NCBI GenBank assembly: GCA_014193115.1
Contig: BJHQ01000014.1
Span: 62,001 to 126,000 of the forward strand
DNA: 64,000 nucleotides
Direction: 5' to 3'
From: Planctomycetota bacterium
GTDB lineage: Bacteria > Planctomycetota > UBA11346
Part shown: positions 26,617-58,618 of the stretch, piece by piece
Position numbering within the stretch: position 1 is the stretch's first letter
Layout: every line of letters starts with the position of its first letter
Made by a program: the position numbers and the translations under genes
The notes under the pieces: model-generated
Seen by the model: only the letters and a program-made list of their open reading frames with translations
What the model was told of the DNA's origin: nothing
Database searches by the model: none

Positions 26617-26695
26617 GTGCGCCCCCGCCTTTTTATGAGAAAGGACGGGCAGGCTAGAAACAGCCCCCCCTGTGTCAAGGCGACGCCTATTTCAT

Positions 26696-27172
26696 GGGGG
26701 CTTCGCCCCCACGGCCCTTTGGGCCTGTTCCAGCTCCGCTTCGCTCCGCGCTGCGCAGGTCGCAGGCCTTTGGCCTGCTGCCACCAGCGGTGGCGCCTGC
26801 TCCGCCCCTGGCCGTGGTCGGCGCTCGTTTTCCTTCGGAAAACGTGGGCGCATCGCCTCCGGCGATTTTCTGCGCCCACCGCTCCTCCGGCGGCCGTTCC
26901 CCGCTCGCTTTGCTCTCGGGGACCCCTTTCCATTGGGGGCTTCGCCCCCACGGCCCTTTGGGCCAGTTCCAGCTCCGCTTCGCTCCGCGCTGCGCAGGTC
27001 GCAGGCCTTTGGCCTGCTGCCACCCGCGGTGGCGCCTGCTCCGCCCCCCTGGCCGTGGTCAGCGCTCGTTTTCCTTCGGAAAACGTGGGCGCATCGCCTC
27101 CGGCGATTTTCTGCGCCCACCGCTCCTCCGGCGGCCGTTCCCCACTCGCTTTGCTCTCGGGGACCCCTTCCC
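26696..27172. repeat. Two-copy 239-bp tandem array of short hairpins
   Basis: Copy 1 is 26696-26934 and copy 2 is 26935 to about 27172; they are nearly identical. Each copy packs at least six perfect hairpins with 3-base loops. In copy 1 these are GGGGGC/GCCCCC (26696-26710), GGCCC/GGGCC (26713-26725), GCAGGCC/GGCCTGC (26762-26778), GCCACC/GGTGGC (26780-26794), CGTTTTCC/GGAAAACG (26826-26844) and ATCGCC/GGCGAT (26852-26866). The last is nested in GTGGGCGC/GCGCCCAC (26844-26879). A decayed partial third copy follows to about 27235. No gene is supported here. Confidence 0.85.
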
Positions 27173-53144: not shown

Positions 53145-55595
53145 TCAGCCCGCGTCCTTGCCGGTGCCGTCCAGCCCATGGACGGTTTTCTCCCAGTAGT
53201 GCGGTTTGACCAGCAATTGCCACAGGCCTTTCCAAGCGCCGATGGCGATCAGCCACCAGTACAACGGCGTCAGCAGAGACGCGCCGATCAGTCCGCGCTG
53301 GCCGACGCGACGGCCCCAGATGACCGCGACTGCCACGAACGCCAGGTTCCCCATGAACAGGCAGGCGGCGGCAGCGGCGAAAACCATGGATAACGTGGAC
53401 AGCACCGGATTTTCGGCATGGCCGGAGTACACCAGTGGCCAGCTGAGGCGTTCCGCCAGCAGCTGGTGATCCAGATATTCATCCACCACCAGGAGGTCAT
53501 AGAGCGAGATGCCGTGGGCGAAATCCCAGGCCAGGAGACCGGCGTAGGTCCCGGTGATCAACCACAGGATCAGGTTGAGCGCAGCCAGCACCGAGACGCA
53601 GAAGACCGATGAGAAGAACCCCAACGCCGCCCAGGGACCAAGTCTCCACAAGAGCCAGACGGGGCGACGGCTCCACACCAGGTGGGTGATGGCATAGCCT
53701 TTCAGCCAACGGCTGCGCTGGCGGATCCAGTTGCCGACATGACTGTTGGCTTCCTCCCAGGTGACGCTGTCGAGCATCGCGGTGCGCTTGCCGGCGATGT
53801 GCAGGCGGACGCCGAGGTCGCAGTCCTCGGTGACATTGAACGGATCCCAGCCGCCGAGGGCGCGCAGCGCATCGGTGCGGAAATGGTTGCTGGTGCCGCC
53901 AAGCGGGATCGGCACACCCAGACGCACCAGCCCCGCCAGATAGCGGCCGAACCAGACATTGTATTCCACCGCGAACCAGCGGGTGAGCAGATTCTGCCGG
54001 TGGTTGTGGTAGGCGAGGTGGGCCTGGAGGCAGACCACGCGGTCGCCGCCTTTGCGCTGGTCGAGCTGACGGAAAGTAAGCACTGCTTTTTTCAGCTGAT
54101 CCGGATCCGGGCGGTCCTCGGCATCGAAAATGACCAGGAACTCGCCGGTCGCACGTTCCAGTCCGTGGTTGCAGGCCCGCGGCTTGGTCTTGGGCTGGGC
54201 AGGCGGCACGACCACGATCGCGGCCCACGGAGGAACGCCGGCGGTCTGCAAGGCGGCAAGGGTTTCCGGGTCGTCGGCTTCGAGCAGGAATTGCACATCA
54301 AGCTGGCTGCGTGGATAGTCGAGTTTTTCCAGGCTGACCAGGATGTTGCGGGCGACATTGCGCTCGCGGTAGAGCGGCACCAGCACCGTGAACCGCGGCC
54401 AACCGCCGGGCGGCTCGGCCAGCGAGCCTTGCCCGAAGCCACGTCCGCCGCCCATCGCCACCGCCAGCAAGCGGAACAGGATGGCCACGGTGTAAATCAC
54501 GCAGATCGCACCGGCGACCACGCCCAGGCAGATCAGCCAATCGAAGAAGAGCAGATAGACCACCGCCAGCACTGCGGCCGCATACCAGGGTTCCTGGCCG
54601 GCCGGTGCGGTGCTGCGGTGGATGAAGGCTCCGATCGACGACGCCACCATCGCTCCGCCGATCAGCCCGAGCAGCGCTCCGCTCAGATTGCCGAAATGGA
54701 TATGCAGGAATCCGACCAGCGGATCATGGGCCGCAGTCAGCGGCAACGGTGGTCCAGCGAGGTGGGAGCCGATCGCCGCGCCGATCCCGCCGAACACCAC
54801 GCCCAGCAGCAGCCAGGGCCACGAGAAAGTGCGCCAGGCGCAGGTCGGCCGATGCAGCTCAAGGTAACGCCGAACCAAGGGATCCGCGCCGTCCACGGCG
54901 TCGATCCGGGTGACTGCATGGACGGCCGGCGGAGTCGGCTGAGGATCCGTCATCTGAGCGATCGGCGATGGTTCTGCGAGGAGCTGAACTGACGAGGCGA
55001 CACCACCAACGTCGGTAGATTCGGCATTCGACGGTCCTGGAACTGACTCAACCCGGCTGGACATGGCGATGGTACGGACGTCACCGGCTTCGGTTGCCGA
55101 CCGTTGCTGACGGTCAAACCAGGATGGCGGCGGAACGATCGTCGCGATGCGCCCGCCACTGGCCTGGTCATGCGCCAGGCCGATCCGCCAGGTGCGTCCG
55201 CCGGGCAGGGCCGGCAGCACCCGTTCCGCCCATTCGACCGCCGCGATGCCCTCGCCTAGCGCCTCAGAAAAACCCAGGGCGTCCAAATCACCCGGCCCGC
55301 CAAGACGCCAGGCGTCGACATGGACCACCGTCCATCGCGTCGTGGCATAGGTGTGGAGCAGGGTATAGGACGGGCTGGAAACCTGATCGCCATCACCGCC
55401 CAAAGCGACGATCAGCGCGCGCACCAGGGTCGTCTTGCCCGAGCCAAGCTGGCCATCGATGGCCAGCACCTCGCCCGGCCCAACGGCTGCGGCCAGGCTT
55501 TCGGCGAGGTTCCGGGTGGCGTCGAGATCCGCGAGATGGATCGGCGAGGCAGGCAGTTCGGAGTGGATTGGCGAAGCTCGAGCGGGCGCGGTCAC
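53145..55595 (-). CDS. TsaE domain fused to a GT2 membrane glycosyltransferase
   Basis: A continuous 816-residue frame with two unrelated parts. Residues about 20-150 are a TsaE-like P-loop ATPase (GQLGSGKTTLVRAL at 49-62, SPSYTLLHTY at 74-83, VHVDAWRL at 91-98, EWAERV at 121-126); TsaE helps make tRNA t6A. A Pro/Ser-rich linker (160-240) follows. Residues about 255-800 are a processive-type GT2, with paired helices, FTVLVPLYRER, EADDPET (439-445), FDAEDRPDP (490-498), TEDCDL (589-594), QRSRWLKG (626-633) and further transmembrane helices. Internal ATGs at 55064 and 54953 could start a separate transferase. No stop or frameshift is visible between them. Confidence 0.8.
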   Translation of the reverse strand: MTAPARASPIHSELPASPIHLADLDATRNLAESLAAAVGPGEVLAIDGQLGSGKTTLVRALIVALGGDGDQVSSPSYTLLHTYATTRWTVVHVDAWRLGGPGDLDALGFSEALGEGIAAVEWAERVLPALPGGRTWRIGLAHDQASGGRIATIVPPPSWFDRQQRSATEAGDVRTIAMSSRVESVPGPSNAESTDVGGVASSVQLLAEPSPIAQMTDPQPTPPAVHAVTRIDAVDGADPLVRRYLELHRPTCAWRTFSWPWLLLGVVFGGIGAAIGSHLAGPPLPLTAAHDPLVGFLHIHFGNLSGALLGLIGGAMVASSIGAFIHRSTAPAGQEPWYAAAVLAVVYLLFFDWLICLGVVAGAICVIYTVAILFRLLAVAMGGGRGFGQGSLAEPPGGWPRFTVLVPLYRERNVARNILVSLEKLDYPRSQLDVQFLLEADDPETLAALQTAGVPPWAAIVVVPPAQPKTKPRACNHGLERATGEFLVIFDAEDRPDPDQLKKAVLTFRQLDQRKGGDRVVCLQAHLAYHNHRQNLLTRWFAVEYNVWFGRYLAGLVRLGVPIPLGGTSNHFRTDALRALGGWDPFNVTEDCDLGVRLHIAGKRTAMLDSVTWEEANSHVGNWIRQRSRWLKGYAITHLVWSRRPVWLLWRLGPWAALGFFSSVFCVSVLAALNLILWLITGTYAGLLAWDFAHGISLYDLLVVDEYLDHQLLAERLSWPLVYSGHAENPVLSTLSMVFAAAAACLFMGNLAFVAVAVIWGRRVGQRGLIGASLLTPLYWWLIAIGAWKGLWQLLVKPHYWEKTVHGLDGTGKDAG

Positions 55596-58333: not shown

Positions 58334-58412
58334 GCGTAGAGCCTAGCACGGTGAAGCAGCATGGCGAGACGGTACCGACCGCGCCTGGACTGGGTTGGGC
58401 TGGCTGGGCTGG

Positions 58413-58558
58413 GAGCGCCGAGCGCCAGCTCGGCTGGGCTGGACTGGACTGGGCTGGGCTGGGCTTCGAGCGCCGAGCGCCAGCTCGGCTGGAGTCGACT
58501 TGCGTCCGTGCAACCGCGTGTTCGGTCTTTGGTTTTGCCGAGCTGGCGCTCGGCGCTC
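58413..58558. repeat. 25-bp direct and inverted repeats upstream of gcvP
   Basis: GAGCGCCGAGCGCCAGCTCGGC plus TGG occurs at 58413-58437 and 58468-58492 in direct orientation with a 55-bp period, and the 22-bp core occurs inverted at 58537-58558. Each copy contains its own hairpin GCCGAGC/GCTCGGC with a 4-base loop. The stretches between are runs of GGCTGG and GGACTGG. The patch fills most of the 285 bp between the small membrane protein and gcvP; no gene is supported in it. Confidence 0.85.
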
Positions 58559-58618
58559 CCAGGGTCGACCAGGACGACCGCTTCACGTCGGCTTCCCAGC
58601 TCCACGATCCCGCCCCCC

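Follow-up and report, generated by a model that had tools for sequence, protein, structure and literature searches.

TsaE is near-universal among bacteria, almost all of which need this ATPase for tRNA modification. The known forms (YjeE/YdiB) are soluble, stand-alone proteins of ~150 aa, and annotations of bifunctional TsaE/phosphotransferase proteins exist in Alphaproteobacteria. Processive GT2 enzymes, the type to which cellulose and hyaluronan synthases belong (PF13641/PF13632; for example BcsA, 4p00), have in common DxD-like, TED and QxxRW motifs and a cytosolic GT-A domain set between membrane helices. The bacterial TsaB-TsaD pair requires TsaE to carry out t6A synthesis over successive rounds (PMC9654439). 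Fusion of a t6A-complex subunit to another enzyme has been described for TsaB and RimI in other bacteria (PMC5335608); it differs from the case presented here in the subunit involved and in its non-membrane partner. A role of TsaE in the cell wall had been suspected before the protein was linked to t6A, and a wall phenotype still attaches to its Streptococcus pneumoniae homologue UbK, whose mutants show cell-wall defects (PMC6733980). UbK, however, is stand-alone and cytoplasmic and has no glycosyltransferase.

The window analysed here is a stretch of 64,000 nucleotides from a Planctomycetota bacterium of UBA11346 (contig BJHQ01000014.1 of assembly GCA_014193115.1, positions 62,001-126,000). 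On its minus strand, positions 53145-55595 form a single frame of 816 codons that starts with GTG, is uninterrupted by stops and joins TsaE to a membrane sugar transferase. A literature search found no paper on a TsaE-glycosyltransferase fusion. A sequence-only reading of this DNA had described the frame as holding an N-terminal TsaE-like ATPase and a complete GT2. Both are borne out as genuine by Pfam, with 99.5 bits for PF02367 on residues 22-144 (cut-off 26.6, E=1.8e-28) and 101 bits for PF13641 on residues 400-632 (cut-off 27, E=1.3e-28). All of the motifs quoted in that reading were located, namely Walker A (GQLGSGKTT), VHVDAWR, EWAERV, DAED, TEDCD and QRSRW. Chance is no explanation for the two domain matches, but it could by itself produce the open join.

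The TsaE ATPase domain spans residues 19-169 (55089-55541, minus strand). The NCBIfam model TIGR00150 also matches the first half of the protein (78.6 bits, cut-off 60.1), and phmmer aligned TsaE structures of the PDB with about residues 25-134. In an AlphaFold2 model built on 26 sequences (mean pLDDT 84), two ordered halves are separated by a disordered linker. The TsaE domain mostly exceeds a pLDDT of 90, and Foldseek relates it to 6n9a and 1htw with target TM-scores of 0.75-0.77, the value for Thermotoga maritima TsaE (6n9a) being 0.77. Walker A (residues 48-56), HVDAWR (92-97) and EW (121-122) are intact and lie in invariant alignment columns. The whole domain is shared with TsaE of the T. 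maritima TsaB2D2E2 complex, including Walker A, SPS/T-Y, HVDA-R, EW and the fold. It differs in forming the N-terminal part of what is predicted to be a membrane protein: the usual form of a small stand-alone protein is not found here, with a GT2 in the same frame, and the family models do not demand that form.

A search for a second tsaE, which the sequence-only reading had proposed, yielded none above the cut-off in the genome (5.25 Mb, 94% complete), the next matches scoring below 20 bits, and the fused copy is thus the sole tsaE over the cut-off. TsaD, TsaB (in a frame with GPGSFTGLRTG) and TsaC/Sua5 have one homologue each, on other contigs of the genome. As TsaB-TsaD need TsaE for repeated rounds of synthesis, this only copy should be functional, and selection is expected to act on the TsaE half. 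The catalytic residues of both TsaE and GT2 are kept in fused and split relatives alike.

As for the second half, four N-terminal membrane helices are predicted within residues 259-381 (54453-54821, minus strand). The AlphaFold2 model places them at residues 259-279, 304-325, 335-351 and 353-381, and hydropathy resolves three to four of them. They precede the catalytic domain at residues 402-641 (53673-54392, minus strand), in which the D, DxD-like (DAED), TED (TEDCD) and QxxRW (QRSRW) motifs are present and conserved in 16 relatives. Hydropathy and the model both place further helices after it, at residues 654-796 (53208-53636, minus strand). Helices flanking a cytosolic GT-A domain, as in processive GT2 enzymes, are thus predicted. 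Foldseek finds BcsA and hyaluronan synthase for this half, and phmmer matched the remainder of the protein to GT2 mannosyltransferase and cellulose synthase structures in the PDB. The equivalog model for CelA/BcsA (TIGR03030) gives 39 bits, far under its cut-off of 699, so the transferase is BcsA-like and not cellulose synthase BcsA proper. Compared with BcsA-type GT2 (4p00), it has no PilZ domain match and has its own set of N-terminal helices, and in four genomes it carries TsaE at its N-terminus. Among GT2 paralogues of the class, those at loci L039, L040 and L041 (genomes G011, G021 and G012) lie in much longer frames of ~1250-1370 aa, which may represent further fusions or else stretches of frame that are not used.

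The even number of N-terminal helices and the clustering of positively charged residues in the predicted cytosolic and catalytic loops would place both domains in the cytosol. According to this model, nothing prevents TsaE from meeting TsaB-TsaD. That the join would bring an essential tRNA enzyme to the membrane, as had been proposed, agrees with this predicted topology, which sets TsaE on the cytosolic face; the membrane location itself is a prediction.

The class to which the window belongs is represented in our collection by 23 genomes of uncultured Planctomycetota, from one family and 12 genera. In all 17 loci in which both genes could be read on one contig, tsaE is directly followed by the GT2 gene on the same strand. 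A stop separates them in 13 of these loci, and the frame is continuous in the other four, those of the window and of G003, G004 and G019. Pfam detects both domains in each of the three other fused frames; in two of these, G003 and G004, just 24-30 nt, free of any ATG, separate one match from the other. Alignment of related genomes thus recovered the join predicted from the window, but it also showed split homologues to be the majority, which partly goes against that prediction. They include a genome of the same genus, G001, where the two genes overlap by 4 bases (ATGA). Because this congener is split, the join in the window itself rests on one assembly, whereas the fusion type does not. At locus L010 of G011, tsaE and GT2 are in frame with each other and a lone TGA keeps them apart, so that one substitution would fuse them.

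Beyond the class, in a search directed at other phyla, we examined 80 loci of the genome collection that hold the nearest GT2s, and the only one with tsaE belongs to G020, a class member; in G031, the two genes lie on different contigs. A scan of the collection with the TsaE part alone as query found nothing. Ten other loci of the phylum with long tsaE frames (G044, G040, G241, G287, G058, G211, G275, G200, G197 and G055) were considered as further TsaE fusions. Their extra length, inspected by eye, is low-complexity sequence rich in R, G, P and S, mostly upstream of TsaE and with no GT2. They were dismissed, since such length is as expected for unused frames in GC-rich DNA.

The gcvP gene adjoins the pair divergently in several genomes of the class and likewise in the window, where two extra genes intervene. 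Just upstream of the called gcvP frame, and partly inside it, positions 58385-58565 hold copies, both direct and inverted, of a GC-rich repeat whose unit measures ~55 bp and has the core GAGCGCCGAGCGCCAGCTCGGC. It has >190 partial matches genome-wide and belongs to a dispersed REP-like family; the true start of gcvP probably lies beyond the repeat, on its downstream side. Elsewhere in the window, a 241-bp unit is present in two tandem copies that are 97% identical (26695-27169).

In a tree of the two domains, G003, G004 and G019, which represent two genera, form one clade (support 100/99), and the window falls elsewhere on a weak backbone. Parsimony requires at least two changes, which would make the window's join an independent one, but a single fused clade is not rejected (AU test, p-AU 0.46). 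Random spacers with the observed lengths and composition would let 2.3 of the 17 pairs be read through, compared with four seen, three of which are those of one clade. With about two joins expected by chance in GC-rich DNA, the open frame alone is no argument for a selected fusion, and both the adjacency and the fusion can arise without functional coupling.

We consider it probable that the frame makes one bifunctional protein, a working TsaE tethered to a membrane GT2 through fusion of an operon. The recurrence of the join in three other genomes and the contrast in ribosome-binding sites described below count in favour. The split congener, the number of chance joins, the weak codon bias of the linker and the fact that planctomycete genes may lack a Shine-Dalgarno (SD) sequence at their start count against. 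Alternatively, the frame may be open while the cell mainly makes two proteins, by cleavage of the linker, by a start of GT2 at an internal ATG, or both. The linker, residues 173-225 (54921-55079, minus strand), has a pLDDT below 50 at 173-210 and 212-225, and a disordered segment of this kind is likely to be protease-sensitive; most relatives, moreover, do make two proteins. Two in-frame ATGs, at residues 178 (55062-55064, minus strand) and 215 (54951-54953, minus strand), had been noted as possible starts for a separate transferase. Both are present, and the second opens with MTDPQPTPP, similar to the start of the split GT2 of G020 (MTDPQGTPPQ), but both have an anti-SD dG of +0.3, i.e. no SD. 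Among the 13 split genes, by contrast, nine likely GT2 starts, picked by eye among in-frame candidates, have a strong SD (dG of -5 or lower), compared with 14% of background ATG/GTG sites; the other four do not. The linkers of the three other fusions contain GTGs but no ATG. Most of these GTGs have a weak SD; exceptions, one each in G019 (dG -5.4) and G004 (-5.0), make an internal start possible there. From these sites, separate production of GT2 in the window appears unlikely. Most simply, the former GT2 start would have decayed, leaving the transferase to be translated within the fusion. Overall, we regard the production of mainly two proteins as unlikely.

It is improbable that tsaE and GT2 of the window genome are truly separate, as in its congener, and that a sequence error confined to this genome has created the join. 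The split in G001 and the lone in-frame TGA of G011 would fit such an error, and with stops in frame 2 of the linker (residue positions 160, 171 and 182), an error of one base might conceal one of them. Nevertheless, both halves are intact and in the same frame, and the join is seen independently in three other assemblies. In the spacer, frame 0 also outscores the other two, although codon bias is weak there in every frame. As proof of coding, this bias is uninformative, since tails known to be coding in split relatives do not score higher. A very improbable alternative, prompted by UbK, is that the TsaE half now serves chiefly to regulate the transferase, tuning envelope synthesis as a kinase-like or ATP-sensing switch. 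The adjacency of the two genes across the whole class and the wall defects of UbK mutants would be in keeping with such a role, as would the role in wall synthesis proposed early on the basis of the Haemophilus influenzae homologue, as cited in PMC6733980. However, with a sole tsaE and with TsaB, TsaD and TsaC present, the t6A duty is expected to be retained; the linker is disordered in the AlphaFold2 model, and adjacency with fusion does not require coupling.

For the single bifunctional protein that we favour, the ancestral state would have been tsaE and GT2 as constant same-strand neighbours; the tsaE stop and the ribosome-binding site of GT2 itself would then have been lost. The N-terminal half would be a working TsaE that binds the soluble TsaB-TsaD pair, hydrolyses ATP and resets the pair in the modification of tRNA at t6A37. 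A disordered linker of ~55 residues would connect it to the processive-type, BcsA-like GT2, which may make an envelope polysaccharide or glycan in the inner membrane. With both active sites in the cytosol, TsaE could work as a tethered subunit. We infer that the full-length protein accumulates with both halves active, and that the tether hardly affects t6A chemistry. Altogether, the observation made in the sequence-only reading stands, and its interpretation is supported in part.

The pairing throughout the class and the fusion in two lineages might also reflect a functional link. TsaE would then anchor the t6A machinery, possibly including TsaB-TsaD, to the membrane GT2 and so couple translation or ATP status, via t6A, to the synthesis of envelope polysaccharide. 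We rate this full scenario as improbable. Given UbK and the class-wide pairing, a regulatory link between t6A and the envelope is an attractive, if unproven, idea. A lineage in which the two genes are always paired and sometimes fused provides a natural construct with which to ask whether t6A synthesis tolerates tethering to the membrane and whether the two processes communicate.
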